Below are positions 45,870-64,000 of a DNA stretch of 64,000 nucleotides, in pieces. The notes under the pieces are model-generated. The model worked only from the letters and a program-made list of their open reading frames with translations. It was not told the origin of the DNA and did not search any database. Both the position numbers and the translations under genes were made by a program. The stretch is from Nitratiruptor sp. SB155-2 (GTDB lineage Bacteria > Campylobacterota > Campylobacteria > Campylobacterales > Nitratiruptoraceae). Within the stretch, counting starts at the first letter, position 1; every line of letters starts with the position of its first letter. The stretch is taken from contig NC_009662.1 of NCBI RefSeq assembly GCF_000010325.1, positions 124,001-188,000 on the forward strand, given 5' to 3'.

Positions 45870-46835
45870 CTATTTTTTGAGATCGAATGACTGCAAGATA
45901 AAAAAGGATGGTTTTTTTTCCCCATCTGCTTCAATGACACCCCAATGTTTTTCTGCTTCACCAAAGTAACCTGTATGGGTTGGAACGTCCACAAGATTGA
46001 ACCAGCCAAATCCTAAAAAGTGTTGCATTGTTGGAAAAATATGACGCCATTTTCTTAAAACATCACTTTGTAGCTTGCTATCATGATAACTTGATATTGC
46101 CAGATAGGCCAAAAGGGTTGGTTTGTGATATTTTTGGTATAAAAAGCTGGCAAAGGCTTTGATCCGTTGAGGTGTTAGCAAAATCTCTTTTTTGCTATTT
46201 CGTGTCAGTGCTCGCATCTCTTGAAAAGCGATGAAATCTGCCACTTTTGCACTAAAGTGTAAAGAGTTTTCAAAAGTGTTCCAGTTTTGTAGGTCTTTGA
46301 TTGTTTTATAGTCACCGAAATCTCCAACACATGGCCCTACAAGAGCATCTTTGACATGTTGCTTTATTTTGATGATGGAAATGGTGTTTAATAGATCAAA
46401 ATCTGTATTGTTGCTCATTCCGTTTTCGTTGTATTCTGGATTGAGGACAACAATTTTTTTCCCTTTGATTTTTTGAAGGTAGCGAATAAAACGCTGGAGA
46501 GTATAAAGGTATCGTTTTTGATGTTTTTTCACATAGTCGGGACTGATTAAATCTCCAAAATAGTAAAAGATAAAAAGTGGCACATACCCTTTTTTTATCA
46601 TTTTTGTAACCGTTTTTGCCGGATACCAATCCTCTTGCCAATCGTGAGTAATCCAAAGCGTAACACTATTGACATTTGGCATCTGCTTTTGTAAAAAAGT
46701 GCTCACTTCTTTTGGATGTTTGCAAGAGGCTTTATAAGCAATTGTATTTTTTTTATAACATACTTCGAACTCTCCTACGCTTATAATCGATGCGTAAGCC
46801 ATCAATGAACTTATCAAGAGTAAAACGAGTTTCAT
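45870..46835 (-). CDS. Exported glycosidase-like protein of the polysaccharide locus
   Basis: A 321-residue protein with a Sec signal peptide (about 1-15). The alternation of strands and helices suggests a TIM barrel: SVTLWITHD, VPLFIFYYFGD, KKIVVLNPEYNENG (a Glu placed like a glycosidase acid/base), FIAFQEM, TLLAYLAISSYHD, FLGFGWFNL and a closing HWGVIEADGEKKPSFF typical of glycoside-hydrolase-like barrels. No exact family is recognised. It is the last gene of the exopolysaccharide cluster, overlapping the HupE-like gene by four bases. Polymer trimming during secretion is inferred, as for the hydrolase domains in Pel and PNAG systems. Confidence 0.55.
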   Translation of the reverse strand: MKLVLLLISSLMAYASIISVGEFEVCYKKNTIAYKASCKHPKEVSTFLQKQMPNVNSVTLWITHDWQEDWYPAKTVTKMIKKGYVPLFIFYYFGDLISPDYVKKHQKRYLYTLQRFIRYLQKIKGKKIVVLNPEYNENGMSNNTDFDLLNTISIIKIKQHVKDALVGPCVGDFGDYKTIKDLQNWNTFENSLHFSAKVADFIAFQEMRALTRNSKKEILLTPQRIKAFASFLYQKYHKPTLLAYLAISSYHDSKLQSDVLRKWRHIFPTMQHFLGFGWFNLVDVPTHTGYFGEAEKHWGVIEADGEKKPSFFILQSFDLKK

Positions 46836-47797
46836 AGACTATCTCCCAGCGAACGTTGTACGATCCAGTAACACGCTATGATCATAGCACTCAATGAAAT
46901 AAAACGAAATAGGACTTTGTGTGATCGAATCAACCACAGGAAAGGTAATAGGGCCAAAATGACAAGGAATTGACCGATTTCGATGCCAATATTAAAACTC
47001 GCTACACTCATTATAAAATTTTTCATACTCAGATGAAGGTCTTGCATAGCGCCTGCAAAACCAAAACCGTGGATCAAGCCAAATCCAAATGCCAGCAATC
47101 CCTCTCGTTGCACAAGAGGATATAAATTGTTGAGTGCCGTTAAGAGGATGGTTATGGCGATAAGGACTTCTATAAGACGAGGAGGTGGAGTGAGAATATG
47201 CAAAGCGTTCAGGAATAGCGTGATTGAATGGGCGATACTAAAAAGAGTGGCAATGGCAAAAATTTTCAGGAAAGCTTTGAAGAAGGAGCGTTCTTTGAAA
47301 ATGATAGGGATGATCAACAAGAGTAGAAAAAGAAGATGATCGGTCCCTTGAAAAATATGACGGATCCCCTCTTTCAAAAAGGTTGCAAAATGGGTCTGCG
47401 GAGTAAATGTTTGAATAGTATATGTTCTCTTTTTTGGTGAAAAGATAAGCAGATCGATTTTGTTATGGTCAGTGATTTTGCACACACCCTGTTGTGTAGG
47501 ATCTTGATCAAAAAAGAGATCGAAAGTAATTTTGCGCTTATGGAGTGGTTTACAAAGGAGTTTATAGTAGGCATTGATGACCACTTCGTTATGAATCTCT
47601 ACTTTTTGAGGGATCAGGGTACATCCTTGAATGTGCAAATGGTTTGCAACGGCACTGTGGGTTTTGTCAATATTGTGGATATTGAAAATGACAAAGCGTA
47701 GATGTGCTCTGTTTTGATCAAAATCGAGCCATATTTTCGTGATATTGAGCGGATGGGCCAAGAGCCACATAGGAAGAAGAAGCAGTAGTACTCTCAT
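46832..47797 (-). CDS. HupE/UreJ-family membrane protein
   Basis: A 321-residue protein with a signal peptide (about 1-15), a ~120-residue extracytoplasmic beta-rich domain, and six or so C-terminal transmembrane helices. The segment HIFQGTDHLLFLLLLI with the later IAHSITLFL and GLIHGFGFAGA is the HupE/UreJ_2 signature, whose His/Asp residues suggest divalent-metal handling. It overlaps both neighbours by four bases, so it is a true member of the polysaccharide operon. Its role there is unknown; metal supply for the deacetylase or lyase is speculative. Confidence 0.8.
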   Translation of the reverse strand: MRVLLLLLPMWLLAHPLNITKIWLDFDQNRAHLRFVIFNIHNIDKTHSAVANHLHIQGCTLIPQKVEIHNEVVINAYYKLLCKPLHKRKITFDLFFDQDPTQQGVCKITDHNKIDLLIFSPKKRTYTIQTFTPQTHFATFLKEGIRHIFQGTDHLLFLLLLIIPIIFKERSFFKAFLKIFAIATLFSIAHSITLFLNALHILTPPPRLIEVLIAITILLTALNNLYPLVQREGLLAFGFGLIHGFGFAGAMQDLHLSMKNFIMSVASFNIGIEIGQFLVILALLPFLWLIRSHKVLFRFISLSAMIIACYWIVQRSLGDSL

Positions 47798-49611
47798 TGG
47801 TAATCAAAGATAATATTGAGTGTTGATTTTGGCATCAGTTTAGAAACCTCAATATCCATATATTTTTCTTTTTTGTTGTTGGAGACTGTTTTGGTTCGAA
47901 TACCTATAATTTCAGCTGTCGGATGGGAAAGGAGAGTGATATTGGGATAGTAGATACGAAAGCGAAAATGGTGAACTTGTTTATCATTTTTATTAGTGAT
48001 TTGAACAAAGATCTTATTGACCGAGTAGTTTGTTGTGATTTGAATGTTTTTTAGCTCTTTTGCAGTGAGGGCAATCTCTTTTCCCATTAGCGGAGTAATA
48101 TCTGGGTGTTGATTGAGATAATCAAAATATTTTGAAAGTATCTCAATATTGCTGCCGTAAGTCAGCAGATGGGTATGTACACTGAGTGTATAGAGAATAT
48201 TCAATCTTGTTAAAAACTCCGTCTCTTTGATAATTTGTTCTAAAATTTTCTCTTTGTTCCAGTCAAGATTGATAATGTATTCATAATCATCCGTTCCATG
48301 TCGGGGAAGAGTAATGAGGCCTGGATACTCCTGTTGTGGATAGATGTATGTTTTGTGTTTTTCCATCGTATAAATATATCCAGAATTTATAAGAATCTTG
48401 GTCATATTGTCGTCGATCTCTTCTCTAGGAGGCCTGAAACCGACCACTTTGGTATTCGTGATTTTTTCTAATAGCAGTTTTGATCCCAAAATCTCTCGCT
48501 CCATATTTTTGAGCGGTGTGCCTATGATTTTTGTATGGGAATAGCTGTGCGAACCTATTTCAAGATAGGGGTTTTGTGCCGCATCGGCTGTGATTTTGGG
48601 ATATTTCTCAGCAAGATATCCGACACAAAAGGCGGTGACATGAATCTTTTTTTGATTGGCAAGTTGAGAAAAGTGTTCAAGATTTTGGTATTGGTATTCT
48701 GTATCTTCTGAAATAAAGACAACTTTTTGCTTGTCAAGATATGGATAAGGAGTGACTGTTACAGGTTCTTTCAAAAAATGCAAAGCGTTTTTGACAAAAT
48801 AGGAAAACATGTTGAAACTATTATCAGTAAGCGTATAGGAAGGAAAAGAGAAATAGATCCATGTTCCTTTTTTGTAAGTGCCGTGCCACTCGACTCCTGC
48901 ATCAAAAAAATCGAGCTGTTTTCCTTCCAAAACTGGAGTGGAGTTTGCATTCCAATTGGACATAACGGCGTCGGGAATCTGATTGGAATGAAAGAGAGGG
49001 ACATTATCATATAAAATATAATCGAAGGTTTTTGCTTTTTGGAAATCACCAGCTACCGGACTAAGGAGTTTTGGCGTGATAAACAGATCTGTTTTATGCT
49101 TCACTTCCATCAAAGCTCGAAGGCCGGTAATAGTATGTATGAGATGATCCCCTTGATATTTACCATCTTGAAAATAGCCAAAATGGTAGTTAAAAAGAAG
49201 TCTTCCCCCTTGTTCCAAAAAGGATAGAAGCTCTTTTTTCGTTTTGGAAGCGAGGTTGATAGTATCAAGAGCAATGAGTACATCTCCTCGATGTAAAGAC
49301 GGGATTTTGGTTTCATTGATTACTTGATAAGAGATGCCTGCATCTGTGAGGTATTTTTGGACGAGTTTCATTCTCTCTATATAGGTTTGACTATCGAATC
49401 CTCGTCTATTTAAAAAATCGATCGTTTTGTCGGATATTAAAAAATAGACTTTTGCATTTTTGGGTAGAGTGGAGAGATACCGATTGAATAGATGTGAATA
49501 GTTTGGAACGAGCGAATGAAAGAGTACAGCGATAAAAAAAAGAAAAAGAGCAACAGCAAAAATCAGATCGAGAGGATATCTATTCGAAAAAGATATATGT
49601 GCTTTGTTCAT
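47794..49611 (-). CDS. Membrane-anchored polysaccharide deacetylase with N-terminal extension
   Basis: A 605-residue protein anchored by one N-terminal helix (about 15-35), so the catalytic part is periplasmic. Residues ~45-270 form an alpha/beta domain resembling glutamine-amidotransferase-like folds. A NodB/CE4 domain (about 305-480) follows with SEDTEY, the metal motif GSHSYSHT (HxxxH) and GFRPPREE. A beta-rich C-terminal domain ends the protein. The first Asp of motif 1 is present but the usual DD is D-T. It would remove acetyl groups from the polymer, like PgaB. It overlaps both neighbours. Confidence 0.82.
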   Translation of the reverse strand: MNKAHISFSNRYPLDLIFAVALFLFFIAVLFHSLVPNYSHLFNRYLSTLPKNAKVYFLISDKTIDFLNRRGFDSQTYIERMKLVQKYLTDAGISYQVINETKIPSLHRGDVLIALDTINLASKTKKELLSFLEQGGRLLFNYHFGYFQDGKYQGDHLIHTITGLRALMEVKHKTDLFITPKLLSPVAGDFQKAKTFDYILYDNVPLFHSNQIPDAVMSNWNANSTPVLEGKQLDFFDAGVEWHGTYKKGTWIYFSFPSYTLTDNSFNMFSYFVKNALHFLKEPVTVTPYPYLDKQKVVFISEDTEYQYQNLEHFSQLANQKKIHVTAFCVGYLAEKYPKITADAAQNPYLEIGSHSYSHTKIIGTPLKNMEREILGSKLLLEKITNTKVVGFRPPREEIDDNMTKILINSGYIYTMEKHKTYIYPQQEYPGLITLPRHGTDDYEYIINLDWNKEKILEQIIKETEFLTRLNILYTLSVHTHLLTYGSNIEILSKYFDYLNQHPDITPLMGKEIALTAKELKNIQITTNYSVNKIFVQITNKNDKQVHHFRFRIYYPNITLLSHPTAEIIGIRTKTVSNNKKEKYMDIEVSKLMPKSTLNIIFDYQ

Positions 49612-49762
49612 TATTCAATACCTCATCGTATGTCAGTCTCTTTTGTGCCAAATTGCGTTTTTTCTCTCTAGCTTTATATAGAAAGTAGGCGATGATACCA
49701 AATGATATCGTAATAATACTGATGATGAGGATAAGCATCGACAAAAAACCGACAAGATTCAT
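49580..49762 (-). CDS. Small single-helix protein, PgaD-like by position
   Basis: A 60-residue protein with one transmembrane helix (about 2-26) and a positively charged tail (YKAREKKRNLAQKR). The ATG at 49762 overlaps the glycosyltransferase stop by four bases and has AAGGGG upstream. The longer frame to 49792 is not needed. In PNAG systems a small membrane protein, PgaD, follows and activates the synthase PgaC. Position and size match, but sequence does not prove homology. Its 3' end overlaps the deacetylase start by 32 bases. Confidence 0.65.
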   Translation of the reverse strand: MNLVGFLSMLILIISIITISFGIIAYFLYKAREKKRNLAQKRLTYDEVLNNEQSTYIFFE

Positions 49763-51075
49763 AAATGCCCCTTTCTTTCCAATTTGCCCCAACTCATTTG
49801 AATACCCATAAACTCTTCTATACTAGCAAATATTTTAGCCAAATTGATCGTTTCGATAAAAAAGATACGATAATAGACCGCATAAAAGACAAGTCCAAGT
49901 TTTTCTCCTGTTAGGAGTATACAGTAGAGCGCTCCTGCAACGTCTAGTATGGTAAAAATACTCCACCAGTAAAAAATAAAAATACTCATACCAGAAGTGA
50001 CTGCCCAGTAAAGTACGAAAATATTGACCCATATATCGGCAAAAGGCCAGAAGAGAGATTCGAACAGCATATACCACATGACCATGCTTGCGGTGGTGTT
50101 TTCTTTGAAATTCCATAAAAGATTGCGGTGTTTTCGAATAGCCTGTAAAATTCCCCTTGTCCATCGGTAGCGCTGTTTGATGAGATCCAAAAGATTTTCC
50201 GGTGCTTCTGTGTATGCTACGGCTTCAGGCTCAAAATCGATCTTATAGCCTTTTGCTATTAGTTTCAAGGTTACATCGCAATCTTCAGCAAAAGTGTCAT
50301 GATCATACAGTCCCACATTATATAGAGCATTTTTTCGAAACATTCCGACGGGTCCCGGGATGATATTGACAGCTTTTAAAAAAGCCTGGCCGTTACGAAC
50401 CATATTGAGTCCTTCAATATACTCAAGCGCTTGCAGTTTGGTGATAAGATTGACTTGATTACTTACATATACACTCCCCGCGACAGCTGCGATATCAGGA
50501 TCTTCAAAATGACGTGCTAAAAGGAGTATGGCGTTTTGCGATATTTTTGAATCTGCATCCATAACAAATATAAGCTCGCCGGTTGAGCGCTCTATTCCAT
50601 AATTGATCGCTTTGGATTTTCCTTCATTTTTTTTACGAAATACCCGAATCTCTTTGCAAAATTCATTGTGTTCAAACTGTTTTGCTTTAAAATAGGTCTC
50701 GTCACTGCTGCCATCATCCACAACTATTATCTCCAAATTGGGATAGTTTTGTGTCAACAAAGAGGAGATGGAAGTGGCGATTGTTTTTGCTTCGTTATAG
50801 GCAGGCACGATAACACTGACCTTAGGATACCGCTGTTTTGGATCGATTTGATAGGTCTCTTCGGCACTTCTTTGGATTGTACGGAAAATGGAGAAAAAGA
50901 GCAGCAGCATATAGCGAAAAATGACAAGAGAAGTAAATCCAAGAATGATGCCATAGCCGATTTTTATAAACATAGAGTTAAAGAGTATGTAATATTGATA
51001 AAACGAATATAAGATGATGCCCAGTGTAACAATCAAAAAAAGGCTCAATAAAATAATAAATACGGTTTTTACCAT
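49759..51075 (-). CDS. Processive family-2 glycosyltransferase (polysaccharide synthase)
   Basis: A 438-residue inner-membrane synthase. Two N-terminal helices (about 4-25 and 39-64) precede a cytoplasmic GT-A domain. Motifs: VSVIVPAYNE, VVDDGSSD, DAD (173-175), TFAEDCD (261-267) and QRYRW (301-305), the D,D,D,Q-x-x-R-W set of processive beta-glycosyltransferases. Three or so C-terminal helices follow. It resembles PgaC/IcaA and hyaluronan synthases more than BcsA; there is no PilZ domain. The start is the ATG at 51075 after GGGGG. The donor sugar cannot be read from the sequence; UDP-GlcNAc or GDP-mannuronate are candidates. Confidence 0.87.
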   Translation of the reverse strand: MVKTVFIILLSLFLIVTLGIILYSFYQYYILFNSMFIKIGYGIILGFTSLVIFRYMLLLFFSIFRTIQRSAEETYQIDPKQRYPKVSVIVPAYNEAKTIATSISSLLTQNYPNLEIIVVDDGSSDETYFKAKQFEHNEFCKEIRVFRKKNEGKSKAINYGIERSTGELIFVMDADSKISQNAILLLARHFEDPDIAAVAGSVYVSNQVNLITKLQALEYIEGLNMVRNGQAFLKAVNIIPGPVGMFRKNALYNVGLYDHDTFAEDCDVTLKLIAKGYKIDFEPEAVAYTEAPENLLDLIKQRYRWTRGILQAIRKHRNLLWNFKENTTASMVMWYMLFESLFWPFADIWVNIFVLYWAVTSGMSIFIFYWWSIFTILDVAGALYCILLTGEKLGLVFYAVYYRIFFIETINLAKIFASIEEFMGIQMSWGKLERKGHL

Positions 51076-51953
51076 GATACCCCCATCTCTAAACGGCACT
51101 CGATACTTTTGTAGTTACTGCCTTGATTGTTAGATGAAGCGTTACTCCAGTTGCATCGTGCATTCATATTTTTGTAGCGATATTCCAAAAGATAACTGTA
51201 TAAAGAGTTTTTTTCCCAAAAACTGTATCCTTTGGCAATTTCTATGCGTATTTGAGATTGTTTAGGCAGTTGCACATAGGAGCGCAGCGCCAAAAGAGTG
51301 CTGTCTGTTTTTTGGGGAGAGTAGTAGCACTTGTTTGGCGTAGTGTTGAACTGATACCATCCATTCATATCCAGAACAAAAAGAATATTTTTGTATTTTC
51401 TAGCATAATACTCCCAATCGAACTGCGGTGTAAAAGCGCTGTTTTTTTTCATCTTTTCATAAGCTAGCGAATACCATAAACCTCTAAAAGGCGAAAGTTG
51501 GAGATAGTGTGATAGCGCAATACGGTTATTCATCTCTTTTGCCGAACATTTTGTCTGTTTTGAATAAATAAGATTTTTTCTTTGCAAAGAGAGAGTGAAA
51601 TTATCATATTGGTACTCAAAATCAAATCCAATACTTTTTTCCTTTTGATCATATAAGAGTAAGCCTTTGATGTTGTTGTACCATAGTCTTAATCCACCAT
51701 AGGAAGTTTCGAGTTCCTTGTTGAGATATGCCTGGCTGAATATTGTCCATAATCTTTCTTTTTTTAGTATAAGCGTACTGGTTGTAAAATGGGTGCCTTG
51801 ATTGTCATTGAGCATATAAAAACGATATTGCAATGCATTGTTTTTTGGTATTTTGTTATCTGCTTGCCGCTTCTGTTTGTCCTGTTGAAGAAGTATGGAA
51901 ACTTTCTTTGCTTTTTGCAGATAGGTTGTATTGAGTACCTCTACCTCTTTCAT
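51069..51953 (-). CDS. Beta-barrel module, probably the C-terminal half of the upstream TPR protein
   Basis: A 294-residue frame of alternating-pattern strands (STLILKKERLWTIF, IGFDFEYQYDNFTLSLQR, RIEIAKGYSFWE, SYLLEYRYKN) ending in EMGVSW, typical of an outer-membrane barrel. It has no signal peptide. The frame is open upstream of its ATG, through ALKKVP-like linker codons, back to the A10 tract at 51994-52003. It is in the -1 frame relative to the TPR gene. One added A, or a -1 slip, would fuse them. The size equals the porin domain of PgaA. Overlaps the glycosyltransferase start by seven bases. Confidence 0.7.
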   Translation of the reverse strand: MKEVEVLNTTYLQKAKKVSILLQQDKQKRQADNKIPKNNALQYRFYMLNDNQGTHFTTSTLILKKERLWTIFSQAYLNKELETSYGGLRLWYNNIKGLLLYDQKEKSIGFDFEYQYDNFTLSLQRKNLIYSKQTKCSAKEMNNRIALSHYLQLSPFRGLWYSLAYEKMKKNSAFTPQFDWEYYARKYKNILFVLDMNGWYQFNTTPNKCYYSPQKTDSTLLALRSYVQLPKQSQIRIEIAKGYSFWEKNSLYSYLLEYRYKNMNARCNWSNASSNNQGSNYKSIECRLEMGVSW

Positions 51954-51976: not shown

Positions 51977-54220
51977 CTATCTGAGGTTGAGCGTTTTTTT
52001 TTTATAGGTTTGGATAAGTTGATCAAGGTCTGTTTCTCTGTTCTGTAGCTGCTTATTGAGAATATTTAGATTTTGTTTGACAAAAAAGAGAAGCGAAGAG
52101 GGCTCCTTTTGTGGTGTATATGTTCCTTTTTCCCATTTTTCGGCAACGATGAGGCATTGTTTATTTTTGCATCGAAGGGTGAGTGTTTTATATCCTTTAT
52201 CCTCTTTATTGGATGAGGTATACTCTTGAAAAAACCGAATGGTGTAGAGGTTGCCTTTATGGCTTACCAAGCGGGGCTCATAGAGGTGTACCTGTATAAA
52301 CTTAGCCTGTTGGAAAATGTGCCGTTTTTTTGCAAGCCATTGAGAAGAAAAAGAGTGTGGGTCATAAAACGTTTTATATTTTTTTATATCCCTGTTTTCC
52401 CATGCTTTTTTCCATTCTTGGATAAATTGCTTTATGAAATCGGGCACCTCTCGGAAAGATCGCAATAGGCTTTCATACTCTTTTTTTGCCTTTTTCAGTT
52501 TCCCCATTTTTTGTAAATTAAAAGCGTAATGGTAATGAACAAGAGGATCTTTTTTATGAAGAAGATGAAAAAATTCGCCGGCCGCTTTGGCATACTCTTT
52601 GGCATACTCCAAGGCAAAAGCGTATCGCTCTCTTGCGTTGTCATCTTTTGGCATTAAAAAAAGATATGCTTTATAGTAGTCGATGGCATCCTGATAGAGT
52701 CCATTGAAATATGCTCTATCAGCATACACCAACAGTGTCTGTGCTCTGCTTTTTGTTTGATCTAAAATAAGATAACGAGGGTTGATTTTTAAAATTTGGG
52801 CTTTAAGCGCCAAAGCTTTTTGAAAACGGGGCTCTTGCTGTAAAATCTCTTGCAAAACGTTGAGCGCTTCTTGGTTGAACCCAAAATAGAAATAGTTCTT
52901 TGCCAAAAGCAGTTTGGCTTGAGGTGTATTTTTCTTGTTTGCCCAGTACTCCAGCAGACTAAATCCTTTATAAAACTCTTTTTGCTCTAGATAGAGTCTT
53001 GCAAGAAGAGGATAAAGTTCGAGTGCATCGGGGTGTTTTTCTATATATGTTTGCAAAAGCTTTATCGATTTTTGGGGATTTTTCTTGGCATACAGCGTTG
53101 CTAGTTTTCCTACAGAGACGCTATCTTGTTTGGTAGCAAAATTCTTTTGGTACGATGCAAGAAGGGTATCGATATTACCTGTGAGGATATTATACTCTTT
53201 TTGAATAGTTGTATTGTTTGGGTATTGTTTGAGTAGTTTTTTATATATTTTGCGCGCCCTCTCTTTTTGATTGTTTTGTGCGTAGAGTTTTGCCAATAGG
53301 TGATCTCTTTGGAAAGAGGAGGGGGAGTTTTGTAAAAGAGATATCGCTTTTTGAGGCTCTCCTTGCCAGCTATAGACGTTTGCTAACAGTTCTAAAGCTT
53401 TCTGGTCGCTTCGGTATTTTTTGAGATGGATTTGTAAAAGATGGATAGCTTTATCGATTTTTCCGTTATCATAGAGCGTCCAAAAGAGTGGAGAGAGGCT
53501 ATCCCAGGAGGGATGGAGCTGGTATTGTTTTTGCAAATAACTGATACTTTCTTGCAACAGTTTTTGATATGTGGCCCGCTCTTTGGATGTGGCTTCGCCT
53601 CTTTTTTCTAAACTGTCCAAAACTTTTTTATATCCGCTCACATCACCTGTTTTTTCATAAAGCGCAAGGAGTTTTTGTGCATCGATTTTGTCTGTTTGGT
53701 AGAGCCTTTCATAGATTGCAAGTGCTTTTTTGTACTCCTTCATTCCTTCATAAAGATGTGCCAGCAGAAGCTCTTTTTGTGGTGAATTTGGAAGTGTGTT
53801 GAGGAGTTGCAGCGCTTGTTTATAATGATGCGTTGCCACTAAAGCTTTGGCAAGTTTGCGTTTTGCTTGTAATGAAAGCTGTTTTTGCATAAAGGGATAA
53901 ATTTTGATCAAAACATTATTGTCCTCAACATGAGTAACAATGGCTTCATCGCTGCCATATTTTGTATGGAGTTGACGGTATAGCTCTTGTGCCGCAATTT
54001 TTTTAAGATACGATTGTGCTATGCTGTTTTGCTTTATGGATTGAAAGATCTCTTTTGCTTTATGAAGCTTGTCATGTGCAAAATAGTATTTTCCAAGTAA
54101 AATTTTGAGATTTTGATCCTCAGGATGTTTTGTTATTTCGGCCTCTAACGCTTTTGAATCTATAGTGATGGAGGAAGCGAACAGATAGAGCGGCACTATA
54201 ACAAGCAAGAATTTAAGCAC
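51977..54220 (-). CDS. Periplasmic TPR protein with NTF2-like domain, PgaA-like when fused to the barrel
   Basis: A 747-residue protein with a signal peptide (about 1-16, ending LFAS) and around fifteen TPR-like helix pairs (for example LLGKYYFAHDKLHKAKEIF and LLANVYSWQGEPQKAISLL). Near the C-terminus (about 605-700) is an NTF2-like domain (FIQEWKKAWENRDIKKYKTFY to CLIVAEKW). It stops shortly after an A10 tract. Fusion with the next frame would give a ~1060-residue TPR-plus-porin protein like PgaA. TPR domains of such exporters bind the polymer or modifying enzymes in the periplasm. Overlaps the BcsE-like gene by eight bases. Confidence 0.8.
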   Translation of the reverse strand: MLKFLLVIVPLYLFASSITIDSKALEAEITKHPEDQNLKILLGKYYFAHDKLHKAKEIFQSIKQNSIAQSYLKKIAAQELYRQLHTKYGSDEAIVTHVEDNNVLIKIYPFMQKQLSLQAKRKLAKALVATHHYKQALQLLNTLPNSPQKELLLAHLYEGMKEYKKALAIYERLYQTDKIDAQKLLALYEKTGDVSGYKKVLDSLEKRGEATSKERATYQKLLQESISYLQKQYQLHPSWDSLSPLFWTLYDNGKIDKAIHLLQIHLKKYRSDQKALELLANVYSWQGEPQKAISLLQNSPSSFQRDHLLAKLYAQNNQKERARKIYKKLLKQYPNNTTIQKEYNILTGNIDTLLASYQKNFATKQDSVSVGKLATLYAKKNPQKSIKLLQTYIEKHPDALELYPLLARLYLEQKEFYKGFSLLEYWANKKNTPQAKLLLAKNYFYFGFNQEALNVLQEILQQEPRFQKALALKAQILKINPRYLILDQTKSRAQTLLVYADRAYFNGLYQDAIDYYKAYLFLMPKDDNARERYAFALEYAKEYAKAAGEFFHLLHKKDPLVHYHYAFNLQKMGKLKKAKKEYESLLRSFREVPDFIKQFIQEWKKAWENRDIKKYKTFYDPHSFSSQWLAKKRHIFQQAKFIQVHLYEPRLVSHKGNLYTIRFFQEYTSSNKEDKGYKTLTLRCKNKQCLIVAEKWEKGTYTPQKEPSSLLFFVKQNLNILNKQLQNRETDLDQLIQTYKKKTLNLR
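51994..52003. repeat. A10 homopolymer at the TPR/beta-barrel frame junction
   Basis: Ten consecutive T on the plus strand (A in the coding strand) lie between a TAA in the barrel frame just upstream and the TAG of the TPR frame 15 codon-bases downstream. Only a change of frame within this tract joins the two frames. It could vary by replication slippage or be read through by polymerase slippage. Confidence 0.75.
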
Positions 54221-55550
54221 GGATATCCTTTACATCCAGTTCATACGCTTCTTTTATGAAAACTATTTCAAAATTATCAAATTTTTTGAGCACATTGTCA
54301 ATGTGTATTTTTCGTATATGCAAAAACGCTATATACAGGTTTTGATTGTCTTGGAAAAAAATATCGTTGTTTCGAATTTTTGCACTGATTGCTTGAGGAC
54401 TTTTGGTTTTCATATGAACAAGAGTAAAAAATATGCCCTGTTTTTGATAGGAGGTGAGTACATTTTGAAATTTTTTATACTCATATACCTCTTTGGCATT
54501 AGGCAGCTGTTCGATCAATGTTGAATAAAAATAGTTTCCAAGAGCCTGCTCCATTGCCATAATATACTCTTTAAAAATAAAGTTCTTGGGCAAGATTTCG
54601 TAGCATCCCTCTTTTTTGGCGATCATGCGATCTTCATAGCGGACAAAATTTTTGTTGAGAATGAAGATTAGGTTTGAAGCAAGGTGGTGTTTGCGAATGG
54701 TTTGACAAATATTTGTATCGAATGTCTCCTCTTTTGGATTGTAGATTAAAAGGGCCGGGTTGTCTAAAATCTTTTCTAACAGATAGGTTACTGAGTCGGT
54801 TACAAAAAGTTTATAAGAAGAGGAATGAAAAAGATATCGATGCAACATTTCAATCTCTTTGTTGCTGGTAATGAGCACAATTTCATTGGAAGTGGCTGCG
54901 GTAGTGGCAATATGTGGCGTCTTTTCACGAAACGGGAGAAGACGCAATGTCTCTTTTTCTAAAATGAAGCGATACTTTCTGGTATTGCTTGGAAGAAGGG
55001 AGTTTTTGATTGTAACGATTCTGTTGTTTTCTGTTGCTTCTATGAAAAAAGTGATATCGGAGAAGTTTTCGATGCTATCGCTTATCTCTTTGGCGCTGCT
55101 ATCGTATGTATATAGAACTTTTTTGTTCTCTTTTTGGAAAAAGGATGCTATCTCTTCTATAAACAGTTTGATGTCCTCTTTGCTAAAATGTTCCAGTAAA
55201 AGTTCGGTTTTGTGAAGAATGATGAGGGAGGCATCGCTTTGTTGGCAGGCGCGTTTGATATCTTCGATAAAAAAGTCGATTCCATATTTAAATTTGAAAA
55301 GATTGATATCTTTTTTGGCATGCAGTGTCTGCATGTGCGAAAAAGCTTTGTCCAATACCGGAAGATGCAATGACTTCAAAATGGTCGCTCTTTTTTGAAA
55401 AAGAGATTTTTCAAGCGCACTGATGAGTAAAATATTGGATGATGGCAGGATCTCTTGCGTTAAAAAGAGTGCAAAAGTAAGTTTGCCTATTTTCTTTTTT
55501 CCCTCTATGGCGATGATATTTGATTGAGATAAAATTTCGTGCAATTGCAT
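54213..55550 (-). CDS. BcsE-like RecA/REC/degenerate-GGDEF protein, candidate cyclic-di-GMP receptor
   Basis: A 445-residue cytoplasmic protein with three visible parts. Residues 1-205: a RecA/KaiC-like fold with a decayed P-loop (EGKKKIGKLT, the usual T/S missing) and strand SLIILHKTE. Residues ~222-340: a receiver-like domain without phosphorylation Asp. Residues ~355-440: a GGDEF-like domain whose active site is replaced (DNQNLYIAFL) but which keeps an RxxD I-site, R393-NN-D396. This order matches BcsE, which binds cyclic-di-GMP through a degenerate GGDEF-derived (GIL) domain in cellulose synthesis. Sequence identity to BcsE is not obvious by eye; the architecture is the evidence. Confidence 0.6.
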   Translation of the reverse strand: MQLHEILSQSNIIAIEGKKKIGKLTFALFLTQEILPSSNILLISALEKSLFQKRATILKSLHLPVLDKAFSHMQTLHAKKDINLFKFKYGIDFFIEDIKRACQQSDASLIILHKTELLLEHFSKEDIKLFIEEIASFFQKENKKVLYTYDSSAKEISDSIENFSDITFFIEATENNRIVTIKNSLLPSNTRKYRFILEKETLRLLPFREKTPHIATTAATSNEIVLITSNKEIEMLHRYLFHSSSYKLFVTDSVTYLLEKILDNPALLIYNPKEETFDTNICQTIRKHHLASNLIFILNKNFVRYEDRMIAKKEGCYEILPKNFIFKEYIMAMEQALGNYFYSTLIEQLPNAKEVYEYKKFQNVLTSYQKQGIFFTLVHMKTKSPQAISAKIRNNDIFFQDNQNLYIAFLHIRKIHIDNVLKKFDNFEIVFIKEAYELDVKDIRA

Positions 55551-55559
55551 AAAGTTCCT

Positions 55560-56291
55560 CTATTTCATTGTTAATGAATCAAACAAAACTTTTGCGCATC
55601 CGTCTCCTTGCAGATAGACACCTGCTTTGAAGTAGTTCCAAAAACCGTTCCAGTAGCTTACATCTTTGTCGATTTTGAGCATGTGGTTTATGTAGATTTT
55701 CATACGAGATCGCTTCACCTCTATAGAAACATCGAAAAAACTGTTTGGTCTCTTTCCGAGATCGATCTTTTCATATCGCTGTTTGTCAGGATCTGCACTG
55801 AGTCGGATCACTGCCCAAAGATGATCATGTTTGTTATGTTGTTCTTTCCACCATGTCAGTCTCAAAAGAGGCTTATTAATAATTTTCCCATTGTCTCCTG
55901 CTCTATGGGAGTCTGCATGTATTTGTAAAAATGTAAACTCCTTTTTTTGATCAAGAGGAAAAAGATAGACTCTTGCACGGATTATTTTAGGAACTTTCGT
56001 CTCTACTCTCCACTCCTCTTTGAATCTTAGTTCGCTGCGATGTTTTTTCCCGCACATGAAAAAGGTCATAAATCTCGCATCTTGGAGATAAAAGTAGCGA
56101 TTTGCAAAATACTGAAACTGCCCATATGGAACACTCCATCTTGGGTCAAAATGGCTTTTAGGAGCTTGCAGTTTTGCATGGTTTAAAACATGCCTAAATT
56201 TTTGTATAGCGTAGGGCGCATCGTGGGCAAAAAGGGATATGCAGACAGCTGATAATATCCAAAGTGCTCGCAAAACTTTTAGTTGGTGCAT
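55560..56291 (-). CDS. PL7-family alginate lyase
   Basis: A 243-residue exported protein with a signal peptide (about 1-22, ending LFAH). It carries all three signature motifs of polysaccharide lyase family 7: RSELR (85-89), QIH (123-125) and YFKAGVYLQ (220-228). These line the substrate groove and hold the catalytic Gln, His and Tyr. It would cleave uronate chains in the periplasm by beta-elimination. Canonical alginate operons use AlgL (PL5) for this, so it appears to fill the same post. It overlaps the AlgK-like gene by 13 bases and is ten bases ahead of the BcsE-like gene. Confidence 0.88.
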   Translation of the reverse strand: MHQLKVLRALWILSAVCISLFAHDAPYAIQKFRHVLNHAKLQAPKSHFDPRWSVPYGQFQYFANRYFYLQDARFMTFFMCGKKHRSELRFKEEWRVETKVPKIIRARVYLFPLDQKKEFTFLQIHADSHRAGDNGKIINKPLLRLTWWKEQHNKHDHLWAVIRLSADPDKQRYEKIDLGKRPNSFFDVSIEVKRSRMKIYINHMLKIDKDVSYWNGFWNYFKAGVYLQGDGCAKVLFDSLTMK

Positions 56292-58567
56292 CGAGGATAC
56301 CTTTTTGCTTTTTCGTAGATTCGCTTGATTGTTTTGGAATCGTTGATAAAACGCATCAGATCATATGTCAGTTTTCCGCTGGAAGGCGTATTGCACAGAT
56401 GTGCTCTAAAAGCATACAAAAGAGCCTTTTTACGAGACTTTTTGGCAATGGATGCGGCGTATTGCAACAGGAGTCTACCATTGTCGGTTAGTGGTCCTTG
56501 ATGCAAATAGTAGTTTTTCCCTGTAATTTTATAAAGAAGCACTTTTGCCTTTGGATTGCGCAGATCGCTCAAGAGAAGCTCTTTGGCTTTCTTGATTGCT
56601 CCTTTTTTGACAAGAAACTGCGCGTACAGTACTTTTGCATTTTTGGCATGTGCAGAGATCGCTTTGAGATACATATTTTCTATAATATTGTCGTATCTAT
56701 GATCGATATTGATTTTTTCGTAAAGGGAGGCTATGTTTATATATCCGTTGCCATCTCCATTTTTAATAGCCAAAGTGTAGTAGTAAATGGCCGCTTTTGG
56801 ATTGAAATCTACCCCTTTTCCCTCTGCATAGGCATCGCCGAGGATGTTAGCTGAAAGGATGTCACCCTCTTGGGCGTACGTATCCAACATATGTACGGTT
56901 TCTTGGATATTTCCGTCGATAAATCCATCAAACACCAAAGAGGCATACTCGATTTGTGCACGCCTGTTGTTGTGCATTTTTGCTTTTTCGAGCCAGTATG
57001 TTTGCAGGTTTACTTTGCAAAGATTTTTATAGATTTGAGCAAGATGGAATTGGGCTTTGTCATTATTGTGCTGTGCGTAGTACTGAAAAATGGTCGCACT
57101 TTGAGTCAGTTTGTTGTTTTTCAGATAATACGCTGCAAATTGCAAATCAATCGATGAATTCAAAGGATCGGTTTCGCATGCTTTTTCTAAGAGTTCAAAG
57201 ATCGGAACATCTTTAATAATTCCTTTTGATTGAAGGGTATAAAGATAGCTGATTGCATTCACATCTCCTTTTTGCGCCGCATCAAGAAGGATTTTGTATG
57301 AATGCCTTTTTTCTTTGTTTGCAAGAAGATTTTGGTAAGCCCATGTGATAAGAGCCGGTTTGAAACCTCTTTGGACAAGGTCTTGCAGATAGGTTTGTGC
57401 GCGATAGTTTTTTGTACCTTTGATACGGTAGAGCTGATAGAGCTTCCACTCTGCATCTGTGAGATTTTGATCCATATAGTCTATGTAGATTGATTCAGCC
57501 AGTTCTGTTTTTCCTAACGTTGGATAAGCGGTATAGAGGCGAGCTAAAAGCAGTTTTGGTTTTGGGCTGCTGTCTGGATAGGAGAGTAGAAAATCTTCCG
57601 CCTCTTGAGGGGTCATTTTGGAGTAGCTGTTTGGGGTTCCAAGCCGTTTTTGATCAATATCGAAAGCGATGAGTCGAAGCATGGCTGCCTTGTATCCCAT
57701 ATCATAAGCTTTTTGATACCAAACAGCGACTCCTTTTTGCATATAGAGTTCTTGGAGTTTGAACAGGGTTGTTTTCTTGACATAAAATTGATCTGGTTTT
57801 TGAAAATGTGTGGTGATGCATGGATGATTGTAGCTTTGTAAGCTTTTTTGCATCTTTTGGTAAAAGATATTGCCTATCTCATAAGCTGCCCGCGCGTTTT
57901 TCTGCGCAACCAGTTCTCCTAAAATTTTGAGTGCTTGTGCCTCATCGTGATATTGATATGCGTATAACCGTGCCAGTCCCAAACCGGCATCTATGTTTCC
58001 ACTTGCATAGGCGATTTTGTAAAAATAGAGTGCTCTTTTTGGAGCATAAAAGGGGTTGGTGGGGTCATTATAGAATTTTGCCAAAGCGTATGCTGCCAAG
58101 GGATTGTTTTGAGCTATCTTTTCGAAAGTTTCCAAAAAATATTTTTGATCAGAAAATGAGGTGAGGAAGTGGCGAACGAGATAGAGATGGTTTTGAAAAT
58201 CTCGCTGGCTCGAGAGAGTTAAGTCCCCTTTTTGCATCCAGTAAAAGGCTTTTTGCAGATTTCCTTGTTTAATGTAGATATCTTCAAGTAAAAAAGCTGC
58301 TTTTTTATTGCCTTGATTGTAAGCCTGCTGAGCAAGACGGATAAATGATGCGTAATCTCGGATTTTTCCTGTTTTATACAAAATATTGGCTAGATGGATG
58401 CTGGCATCGAGATACCCTGCATCCGCTCTTCGTTTCCAGATAGCAAAAGCTGTTTCATAGTCACCATTGCGGTACGCTTTTTGTGCCACATCTTTGTTGG
58501 CACATCCTGCAAACAGCAGCAGTAAAAGAAAGCTGCTACCAAAGATATTTAAAATAGATTTGTGCAT
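56279..58567 (-). CDS. AlgK-like Sel1-repeat lipoprotein
   Basis: A 762-residue protein with a lipoprotein signal (lipobox LFAGC, Cys22) and many Sel1/TPR-like repeats through its length, for example YRNGDYETAFAIWKRRADAGYLDA, LGLARLYAYQYHDEAQALKIL and ANILGDAYAEGKGVDFNPKAAIYYY. AlgK of Pseudomonas is a lipid-anchored Sel1 protein that localises the AlgE porin and links it to inner-membrane parts. This protein is about 300 residues longer. It overlaps the AlgE-like gene by 32 bases and the lyase gene by 13. Confidence 0.82.
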   Translation of the reverse strand: MHKSILNIFGSSFLLLLLFAGCANKDVAQKAYRNGDYETAFAIWKRRADAGYLDASIHLANILYKTGKIRDYASFIRLAQQAYNQGNKKAAFLLEDIYIKQGNLQKAFYWMQKGDLTLSSQRDFQNHLYLVRHFLTSFSDQKYFLETFEKIAQNNPLAAYALAKFYNDPTNPFYAPKRALYFYKIAYASGNIDAGLGLARLYAYQYHDEAQALKILGELVAQKNARAAYEIGNIFYQKMQKSLQSYNHPCITTHFQKPDQFYVKKTTLFKLQELYMQKGVAVWYQKAYDMGYKAAMLRLIAFDIDQKRLGTPNSYSKMTPQEAEDFLLSYPDSSPKPKLLLARLYTAYPTLGKTELAESIYIDYMDQNLTDAEWKLYQLYRIKGTKNYRAQTYLQDLVQRGFKPALITWAYQNLLANKEKRHSYKILLDAAQKGDVNAISYLYTLQSKGIIKDVPIFELLEKACETDPLNSSIDLQFAAYYLKNNKLTQSATIFQYYAQHNNDKAQFHLAQIYKNLCKVNLQTYWLEKAKMHNNRRAQIEYASLVFDGFIDGNIQETVHMLDTYAQEGDILSANILGDAYAEGKGVDFNPKAAIYYYTLAIKNGDGNGYINIASLYEKINIDHRYDNIIENMYLKAISAHAKNAKVLYAQFLVKKGAIKKAKELLLSDLRNPKAKVLLYKITGKNYYLHQGPLTDNGRLLLQYAASIAKKSRKKALLYAFRAHLCNTPSSGKLTYDLMRFINDSKTIKRIYEKAKRYPRCTN

Positions 58568-60806
58568 TCAAACCATCCTTTTTTGATGCTTTGTTGTTAA
58601 AGGCTTCTCCACCAAAAAAGTAGCCCAAGACAAAGCGCCAGTATGTATCGTCAAACAGATCGTAGTGGAGAATCAGATCGATTTCACTCCCTAAATTTTT
58701 CTTTTTCCCGTTTGGCGCATAGGTATAAGGGGATGCAAAATATTGTGTTGAGGATGCTTTATCTTGCATGTAATTGTGCAGTGCTGCAATAGCTGTTTTG
58801 TTTTGATCCCCCCACAGATGGTGGACAAAGTAGACTGAACTGATCCACATGTTGGAGAGCTCTGGATTGAAAAAAGAGCCGTAACGTCTAAATGAGATAT
58901 CTTTGCTTAAGTAGTTGGATCTGTTGTTGGTTAGTGAGGGTTGCCTATAGAGATTGCCGCCACCAGAACCATATGCTACAGATGCTGCGATTGCGCTGTT
59001 GTATCGCGTAAAGGTGTATTTGCCTCCGATATCAAATCCAAGACCTTGTATCTTTTTGTTTTCTTGGATAGTGATGGGTGGAAAAGTGGTGATAGTGCGC
59101 AATCTTTTGTAGGAGCCATTGGCGTGTGCTACATCTGCCCAATAGGAAATTTTGTCCTGATTGAAGCGCTCTATCTTTCCTTGCATACGAATACCGACCC
59201 AATCTGCATTTTTGAGGTTGCCATCTTCGTGAATGTAAAAGCCTTCAATAGTATTGTCTTTGAGGTATTCGTAGCTGAGATGTCCAATGAGAAATTTTGT
59301 ATCTTTGAGATTGACTAATGACTCATCTTCTCCAGTATTGAAAACGATACTGTCAGTAAGTCGTGTACCGCCATAGAGTTCATACAGCAAAAGATCATGT
59401 TTGTTAAATATCCCGACACTGTCGAGGGAGGTTTTGTAATACCATGCTCGTTTGTCTTTGAGATATTTTCTTCCGATCAGAAAATTGGCCTGATTGTCAA
59501 AGAGTCCATCGCTACTGATGTAAAGCTCTTTGACATCAAATTTTGTTTCCGCTTTGCTTTTTGAAAGATATAGAAGTGCTCTATCGTCTGTAAAAAAGTA
59601 CCACAAAGGGAGAAAGTAGTATTTGTATTTCAGCCCTGCAGTAACTGTTAATGATTGATTATCGAGTCTGGTTCCGTTGGTGTCTGTTTGACCATAGTTG
59701 ATGTTGAGAGAAGCTGTAGTGTAGAAATTGAGTTTTTCTTGTGGTGTAGGATACGTGGTATTTTCTTCATTGCCAATTAAGATATGAGAAAGAGATCTGG
59801 TCGAAGATTTTGGGATAGTGAGTTTTGGAATTCTTTGTTCTACCAATGCATTTACATAACTTTCTACTGCATCAAGATCGATGTTTTCCCACGGGTAGTT
59901 CTTTTTGTTTTCGATGCATTTATCTCTGCATGCAACGATGTTCTTCTCTGTTTCAGAAGAACAGTTGCTTTGTTTGGTATGAGCTGTAGGGACTTTTTTA
60001 TAAAAGGATGGTTTGGGAAGGGAGCTTTTTGGTTTTTGTTGCAATGGTGATAGAGTGTGAATGGTTTGGAATCGTTTATGAATTGGACCAAGTTTTTCAG
60101 TTGTTTCTTCCACGATCTCTTGTGTAGTTGGGATGATGATAGCTTCAGGAAACTCCTTTTTGAGTCGTTGCCAGGTTGGTTTTGCTTGGGTGACAGTATC
60201 AAAACAGCCATATTGGGCAATATACATTCCATATTTTTGGATAATCTTTGTCCCTAAAGGAAGATTGGCATTATCGATGGGGTTTTGACTCTCAATCAAA
60301 TCAATAGTAAAGCAGCTTTTTTTCCTCACTTTTTGAATAGATTGTTTTGGTGCACTCACTTGAGGCGTTGCATCTTGTGTAACGATTGTTTTGATAGGTG
60401 GACTTGGTATGATCTCTTCCTCAATGTTCGATTCTTCTTTTTGTAGGCTGGATGGGTGCTTTTTTTTTGTATTGGCAGGCTGGAAGTACAAATCTTTTTT
60501 AAAGGTTTGAAGGGATTTTGTATGTGAATTACCATCTTTGAATCGGTATCGGTATGTGGAGACAATATAAGCTTGTGGGAACTGCCGTTTTAAACGTCTT
60601 AGAGCCGGTTTTGCATCCCTAACCTGATCAAAGCAGCCATAGCGCAATGTGTAGGTTCTGTTGATATGCATGATTTTTGCCCCTTGGGGAAAAGAGCTTT
60701 TGTAGTTAAAAGGTTTGTTGCTGCTTAGAAGCTGAACAGAGTAACAGGTATCATTTCCATACAGCAGCGATGCCGCAAAAAAAGAGAGAAGGATTTTATT
60801 TCTCAT
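58536..60806 (-). CDS. AlgE-like outer-membrane polysaccharide exporter with two SPOR-like modules
   Basis: A 756-residue exported protein (signal about 1-18). Two copies of a ~65-residue SPOR-like module lie at about 20-90 and 165-230 (LRYGCFDQVRDAKPALRRLKRQFP; IAQYGCFDTVTQAKPTWQRLKKEFP). After a Lys/Ser/Pro-rich linker, the last ~420 residues form an alginate-export type barrel: LNFYTTASLNINYG, ANFLIGRKYLKDKRAWYY, GFYIHEDGNLKNADWVGIRM, YWRFVLGYFFGG, final YLW. The ATG at 60806 has better spacing than 60812. It overlaps the epimerase gene. An A9 tract (60460-60468) in the linker is a possible slippage site. Confidence 0.82.
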   Translation of the reverse strand: MRNKILLSFFAASLLYGNDTCYSVQLLSSNKPFNYKSSFPQGAKIMHINRTYTLRYGCFDQVRDAKPALRRLKRQFPQAYIVSTYRYRFKDGNSHTKSLQTFKKDLYFQPANTKKKHPSSLQKEESNIEEEIIPSPPIKTIVTQDATPQVSAPKQSIQKVRKKSCFTIDLIESQNPIDNANLPLGTKIIQKYGMYIAQYGCFDTVTQAKPTWQRLKKEFPEAIIIPTTQEIVEETTEKLGPIHKRFQTIHTLSPLQQKPKSSLPKPSFYKKVPTAHTKQSNCSSETEKNIVACRDKCIENKKNYPWENIDLDAVESYVNALVEQRIPKLTIPKSSTRSLSHILIGNEENTTYPTPQEKLNFYTTASLNINYGQTDTNGTRLDNQSLTVTAGLKYKYYFLPLWYFFTDDRALLYLSKSKAETKFDVKELYISSDGLFDNQANFLIGRKYLKDKRAWYYKTSLDSVGIFNKHDLLLYELYGGTRLTDSIVFNTGEDESLVNLKDTKFLIGHLSYEYLKDNTIEGFYIHEDGNLKNADWVGIRMQGKIERFNQDKISYWADVAHANGSYKRLRTITTFPPITIQENKKIQGLGFDIGGKYTFTRYNSAIAASVAYGSGGGNLYRQPSLTNNRSNYLSKDISFRRYGSFFNPELSNMWISSVYFVHHLWGDQNKTAIAALHNYMQDKASSTQYFASPYTYAPNGKKKNLGSEIDLILHYDLFDDTYWRFVLGYFFGGEAFNNKASKKDGLNAQIYFKYLW

Positions 60807-63461: not shown

Positions 63462-64000
63462 CTATTGCCAAAAAGTATCTATCGTCACATAGACCGTTGT
63501 GTTAATTAGTGAAATATCAATCGGCTCGGTTGGTTCTAAATAGAGCGTGTCGTAATCTCTTGGGCGATTATAGATATTGGCCAATATTTTTGCTTTTTCC
63601 AAATCGACAGGTTGGGCAGGCTCAATTTTTACTACTTTTGCTTCAAATATTTGGTCATCTTGTGTACGTACTTTAGCGATATAACCAACTTTTACCTTTT
63701 TAAAGAATTTGTGATCCATTTTTGCGATGATATAAGGTGCTGTATCTTTTTGCAATACTGTGACCACAGGTTCTGCTGTATTTCTAAATTCGTTCTCCAA
63801 AACATTGACTTTCAGGACAGTTCCATTCAAAGGGGAAATGATTGGTTGCATTTCCCCATCGATAAAGCGCGCGATAGCGATCGTTTGATTGATTTCGATG
63901 TTATCGCCTCTATGTAGAGTCTTTGTGAAATGGATGTAGGAAAGAAATGGTGCGCGGATGACGGTAATGTTACCGTCTACATAGGCGTTCGCAGTCTGTA
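63462..64000 (-). CDS. Alg44/HlyD-like periplasmic adaptor, C-terminal part (5' end outside window)
   Basis: The frame is open to the right edge, so only the last ~179 residues are seen. They show the membrane-fusion-protein pattern: NAYVDGNITVIRAPFLSYI, a lipoyl-like half (GDNIEINQTIAIARF, ISPLNGTVLKVNVLENEF) and a beta-barrel domain (IIAKMDHKFFKKVKVGYIAKVR). Placed directly ahead of algG, this fits Alg44, the co-polymerase whose N-terminal PilZ domain binds cyclic-di-GMP; that domain, if present, lies outside the window. Another HlyD-family adaptor is possible. It is the most upstream visible gene of the operon. Confidence 0.72.
   Translation of the reverse strand, partial: QTANAYVDGNITVIRAPFLSYIHFTKTLHRGDNIEINQTIAIARFIDGEMQPIISPLNGTVLKVNVLENEFRNTAEPVVTVLQKDTAPYIIAKMDHKFFKKVKVGYIAKVRTQDDQIFEAKVVKIEPAQPVDLEKAKILANIYNRPRDYDTLYLEPTEPIDISLINTTVYVTIDTFWQ

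Follow-up and report, generated by a model that had tools for sequence, protein, structure and literature searches.

A 445-aa protein encoded at the joint of two exopolysaccharide (EPS) systems in the vent-type bacterium Nitratiruptor sp. SB155-2 is likely to be a catalytically dead, cytosolic, putative c-di-GMP receptor of BcsE-like build that switches on a PgaC-like GT2 synthase. This reading draws on the domain architecture of the protein, on two RxxD motifs and their invariance, on the predicted fold of residues 215 to 445, and on the linkage of the gene to a PNAG-like block in the window, by which we mean the whole 64,000-nucleotide stretch of DNA that was analyzed, and in relatives. In the papers found, BcsE is described in cellulose systems only, and PNAG systems sense c-di-GMP via PgaC/PgaD (PMC8461298). 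A literature search conducted largely outside subscription journals returned no paper pairing BcsE with Epsilonproteobacteria, no use of the term BcsE-like, and no paper that combined Campylobacterota, exopolysaccharide, and c-di-GMP. Our results suggest that an on-switch of the BcsE type is in use more widely than thought.

Domain organization and the two RxxD motifs

The gene and its parts are as follows (window coordinates):

54213..55550, minus strand: ORF of the BcsE-like gene (445 aa)
54936..55550, minus strand: N-terminal decayed RecA/KaiC-like P-loop domain, approximately residues 1-205, with Walker A GKKKIGKL and KaiC-family matches in homologues
54531..54890, minus strand: receiver-like (REC*) domain, approximately residues 221-340, with the phospho-Asp replaced by Asn271
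54243..54521, minus strand: degenerate GGDEF-like (GGDEF*) domain, approximately residues 344-436, from the AF2 model and Foldseek
54630..54641, minus strand: first RxxD motif of the receiver domain, R304-Y-E-D307, aligned with R306ATD of E. coli BcsE
54363..54374, minus strand: second RxxD (R393-N-N-D396), at the I-site position, in register with R415TGD of E. coli BcsE

A first-pass annotation of this DNA had proposed the three-part order of BcsE, and domain evidence, the structure model, and Foldseek all bear it out. The N-terminal domain, claimed there as a decayed RecA-like one, resembles the degenerate RecA-like NTPase domain of BcsE, with KaiC/RecA family matches in some homologues (E=2.4e-5 for the L018 protein and 6.4e-5 for that of L043) and degraded Walker A and B motifs. 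Walker A reads GxxxxGKL in place of GKS/T in the window protein and in most EPS-linked members of the family; two members retain an intact motif (GKST, GKTT), and a group linked to glyS has lost it altogether. At Walker B, nearly all EPS-linked homologues carry His instead of Asp. The receiver-like domain without its Asp also holds, as the family profile matches receiver domains in the PDB (1mvo, E=6e-6) and the phospho-Asp position is occupied by Asn (N271 here; N in 30 of 45 aligned rows). One further protein (L168, E=8e-10) was left out of the family as a different receiver protein lacking R304.

The C-terminal domain carries no GGDEF motif, and its identification comes from structure prediction. 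An AF2 model limited to residues 215-445 and built from a four-sequence alignment (mean pLDDT 86.1, pTM 0.83) shows a REC fold and, after it, an alpha/beta core that is GGDEF-like, the element whose absence the first-pass annotation would have counted against its own reading; a single-sequence model of the protein (pLDDT 37) was of no use. In a Foldseek search of the PDB with residues 215-445, BcsE entries were among the top matches (6ybb, 1.6e-7; 6tj0, 2.1e-7; 9fo7, 4e-7; probability 1.00), consistent with the receiver*-GGDEF* tandem fold of BcsE, and the active REC-GGDEF cyclase DgcR ranked as high (9.1e-8, probability 1.00). PleD and WspR were also matched. All of these alignments span ~250 columns, with probability 1.00 and E-values between 1e-7 and 1e-5, and a search against viral proteins returned generic receivers only. 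Whole-model TM-scores are low (0.33-0.42) because the two domains are arranged differently, and receiver domains aligned alone give target-normalized values of ~0.7-0.8.

The GGDEF-like domain had been described as having lost its active site while keeping R393-NN-D396, and this motif proves invariant. The case for BcsE is stronger than that annotation knew because a second motif, R304-YE-D307, is also present in the receiver domain. All four residues (R304, D307, R393, and D396) are invariant in every row that covers them among 44 homologues, with F341 and Y342 almost as constant, and Arg at the position of R304 occurs in none of 17 ordinary receivers of the same genome. Alignment with hhalign, against E. 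coli BcsE and against ten BcsE proteins, is collinear over ~330 columns and places R304xxD307 on R306ATD and R393xxD396 on R415TGD, and a conserved Gly follows the receiver Arg by 11 residues in both families. When the four RxxD residues are masked, the same 329-column path is kept (93-434 versus 110-471) and the score falls from 24.7 to 17.9. Judged by sequence, the protein therefore has the dual I-site of BcsE, with one RxxD in GGDEF* and one in REC*. The R306ATD-R415TGD pair of E. coli BcsE binds a c-di-GMP dimer in a composite pocket, and with this dual I-site, affinity for c-di-GMP rises from ~2.5 uM to ~140 nM (PMC11470070). R304xxD307 completes a putative, composite, two-motif c-di-GMP pocket of this same type.

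Sequence similarity to BcsE is weak. The profile-profile score (E=0.047) is only modestly above the controls: the mean for 60 block-shuffled alignments was 15.2 and the highest 23.9, with ~13 for reversed ones. When the homologues were mixed with 443 decoys and searched with a BcsE profile HMM, their scores were borderline (best E of 0.02, with the C-terminal region). We therefore did not base kinship on sequence score by itself, which is no proof of it; register, predicted fold, and invariance together make the case for a BcsE-like protein. The BcsE identity put forward earlier thus stands for architecture and both motifs and does not for family by sequence, as the window protein has no match in Pfam or NCBIfam (hmmscan), its family being unnamed in both, and the BcsE family PF10995 has no match anywhere in its own genome.

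The loss of both the receiver and the GGDEF active sites, together with the equal Foldseek ranking of REC-GGDEF cyclases and BcsE, could also describe an adaptor for protein interactions that arose from a REC-GGDEF cyclase and has lost c-di-GMP binding. This is very unlikely in our estimation, as the invariance of four ligand-site residues in so divergent a family would hardly be expected had binding been lost, and with the phospho-Asp gone there is no phosphorelay either.

Linkage to a PNAG-like block

In the window, the BcsE-like gene stands between an alginate operon upstream and a PNAG-like block downstream, starting 9 bp past an alginate-lyase-like gene and overlapping the TPR gene by 8 bp:

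45870..46835, minus strand: conserved secreted protein belonging to the block, which reads as glycosidase-like
46832-47797 (window): HupE/UreJ-like membrane protein gene
47794..49611, minus strand: membrane-anchored polysaccharide deacetylase
49580..49762, minus strand: one-TM membrane protein of ~60 aa that resembles BcsF in its size and topology and ends in the conserved tail YEEIL...xYIYFE
49759..51099, minus strand: GT2 synthase, best NCBIfam match PgaC_IcaA
51069..51953, minus strand: C-terminal barrel-like part of the export porin, in a frame other than that of the TPR part
51977..54220, minus strand: TPR protein carrying a Cds6_C domain, which forms the N-terminal portion of the export porin, in a role like that of PgaA/BcsC
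55560..63456, minus strand: alginate half, with PL7 alginate lyase, AlgK-like, AlgE-like, and AlgG-like genes
63462..64000, minus strand: Alg44-like gene running out of the window, with a weak N-terminal PilZ

The GT2 synthase matches PgaC_IcaA at E=1.1e-60 with 205.7 bits, against an equivalog cut-off of 422.3, and both the polysaccharide deacetylase and the TPR porin of a PNAG synthase block are present. PgaD was not found in the block, and its place holds only a one-TM protein of 57-72 aa. The secreted protein at 45870..46835 has no family match. The porin, which in many relatives is a single ORF of 1120-1150 aa, is split in the window into TPR and barrel parts in different frames, with a run of 10 A (51994-52003) at their overlap that may be a slippage (phase-variable) site, the mark of a disrupted gene, or a sequencing error. 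Porin genes are also split in two other relatives (L095 and L097), and a HupE/UreJ-like gene is again located within or next to the PNAG-like block of distant relatives (L153-L159, L161).

The first-pass annotation had placed the gene inside an alginate-like operon, in an alginate/PNAG-like locus, and saw in it a direct c-di-GMP input besides any PilZ domain on Alg44. Alginate genes upstream and PNAG-like genes downstream are indeed there, and the gene sits where these two systems meet. A role in serving the operon's own alginate synthase (Alg8/Alg44), providing a c-di-GMP input in addition to PilZ, would fit the 9-bp spacing from the lyase gene and the shared direction of the BcsE-like and alginate genes. 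The Alg8-like, AlgD, and AlgA-like genes of this operon follow past the window end. However, Alg44 already bears a PilZ-like domain (E=0.0023, below cut-off), and at the other loci examined, no alginate genes were recognized next to a homologue, the window alone having the alginate operon. Instead, the homologues accompany the porin-GT2-deacetylase block, and in one locus (L091) the second system consists of bcsA (with PilZ), bcsB, and bcsC, on the other side of the BcsE-like gene. We therefore consider the alginate synthase an unlikely partner, and the relatives tie the gene to the block of PgaC-like synthase and deacetylase. The L091 arrangement, in which bcsA-bcsB-bcsC (L091:4545-13038) stand directly ahead of the BcsE-like gene and PNAG-like block, amounts to two EPS systems in tandem, like the window with its alginate genes.

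This linkage is tight. The BcsE-like gene adjoins the porin or the GT2 gene in all 27 complete PNAG-like loci, in two gene orders: 15 loci, including the window, have gene-porin-GT2-small TM-deacetylase, and 12 have porin-gene-GT2-small TM-deacetylase. The small one-TM protein is present in every complete locus. Counted by genome, and with the caveat that shared ancestry makes such counts not independent, 31 of 34 deacetylase-bearing genomes have the BcsE-like gene versus 41 of 399 overall; among the three exceptions, the contig ends inside the block in two, and the third has a different locus. An OmpR-type regulator and a histidine kinase are encoded upstream of the BcsE-like gene in many relatives (L013-L016, L086-L090, L092), and the kinase of L014 is oddly built, its ATPase domain being followed by FecR and TPR domains.

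A proposed c-di-GMP switch for the PgaC-like synthase

We infer from sequence, the model, and analogy that the protein would bind c-di-GMP, act on the GT2 synthase, and be anchored by the small membrane protein. The degenerate receiver and GGDEF domains would each supply one RxxD to a composite c-di-GMP dimer pocket, and rising c-di-GMP would cause the two domains to close on the ligand, giving a form that may help to assemble or activate the neighboring PgaC-like GT2 synthase, whose predicted product is a deacetylated, PNAG-like exopolysaccharide. The decayed P-loop domain would probably mediate dimerization and dock the protein at the membrane; the conserved 60-aa one-TM protein may be the docking site, just as BcsF is for the BcsE N-domain. 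E. coli BcsF is itself a one-TM protein of 63 aa, and its tail pairs by beta strand with the BcsE N-domain (PMC11470070). The size, single TM helix, and conserved aromatic tail of the small protein make it a candidate anchor by analogy, and no sequence kinship to BcsF is claimed.

The genome, searched as one contig of 1,877,931 bases, encodes 35 GGDEF domains and has three PilZ matches above cut-off, none of them at the BcsE-like locus. It contains no BcsB and no cellulose synthase partner, and for BcsQ there are only generic ParA-type matches, none near the locus. From the bcs cellulose operon set of BcsR, BcsQ, and BcsF, only an analogue of BcsF in topology was found.

Several known systems can be set beside this arrangement. 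With BcsE (PF10995) of E. coli type II cellulose secretion, the window protein shares the domain order (P-loop-like N-domain, then receiver*, then GGDEF*), the aligned positions of both c-di-GMP RxxD motifs, the C-terminal tandem fold, and a location near a ~60-aa one-TM protein and a synthase-dependent exopolysaccharide machine; it differs in lacking a significant PF10995 match, in its linkage to a PgaC-like synthase and a deacetylase, in its occurrence in Campylobacterales, and in the want of BcsB, a cellulose synthase, or a nearby BcsQ-like gene. PelD of the Pel system likewise controls an exopolysaccharide synthase through a dead GGDEF domain with an I-site RxxD (PMC8461298), but in PelD this domain is accompanied by four TM helices and a GAF domain, whereas the window protein has receiver and P-loop domains, and the extra ligand contact in PelD is a GAF Arg rather than a second RxxD. 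The block shares its PgaC-like GT2, deacetylase, and TPR porin with PgaC/PgaD systems, but in E. coli, PgaC and PgaD themselves bind c-di-GMP (PMC8461298), whereas here there is a separate receptor gene and no PgaD was found. DgcR, PleD, and WspR share the REC-GGDEF fold, but they are phosphorylated, active cyclases, whereas the window protein lacks both active sites and has an RxxD in its receiver.

If a family with the same composite pocket does accompany PgaC-like synthases across the order, the BcsE design would be polymer-independent. It would also provide a receptor that can be tested directly in bacteria encoding tens of GGDEF proteins, and a simpler system, without BcsR or BcsQ, for learning how BcsE-type binding turns a synthase on. 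More tentatively, a BcsE-type receptor and a 60-aa anchor could constitute a portable c-di-GMP switch that replaces PgaD in a whole class of PgaC-like exopolysaccharide systems of Campylobacterales, with enterobacterial BcsE/BcsF as one branch of an older, polymer-independent module, an extension that we regard as possible rather than probable.

Spread of the family and further observations

The BcsE-like family is not confined to the Nitratiruptor genome. Of 399 genomes of the order, a profile search recovered it from 73 at E<=1e-3 and from 41 at E<=1e-20, and it is spread over the order, with some copies lacking EPS linkage. Full-length homologues found in a search of 60 relatives are ~29-34% identical to the window protein, and full-length family members overall are 19-34% identical. 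None of 15 other genomes of the same genus has the gene. Protein searches of plasmids and viral contigs gave no relatives, and in genome contigs a single-protein scan gave none while an alignment scan gave three. Those three were enough for the model of residues 215-445, which did not include the loci recovered by the genome searches. The relatives that carry names are MAGs of Nautiliaceae and other Campylobacterales.

Some family members lie apart from the block. In one family (f22), the BcsE-like gene is unlinked from it. A second group, monophyletic (99/99) and belonging to one family of the order (L009, L010, L042, L045-L052, L170), sits between a metallophosphoesterase gene and glyS without EPS genes, and its members are often shortened to the receiver-GGDEF part with both RxxD motifs kept. 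Another unlinked copy stands beside a PLP enzyme gene. The glyS-linked homologues, being away from EPS genes, imply that the role of the family is not always in EPS, and the unlinked copies would suit a c-di-GMP-binding protein whose target is something other than the GT2 synthase, for example, porin assembly, gene expression, or motility. For the window protein, such action elsewhere seems improbable given the adjacency to the synthase block in every complete locus and in both gene orders, and the PgaC-like synthase remains the preferred target.

The alginate half of the locus holds a separate feature of its own. Past the right end of the window, between the AlgA-like and AlgD genes (L085:4435-9977), are genes for a PP2C phosphatase, an AAA protein, and a 1020-aa protein with a Ser/Thr kinase, WD40 repeats, and, by reading, an FHA-like N-terminus. 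These genes form a eukaryote-like phosphosignaling set within an EPS (alginate) operon.
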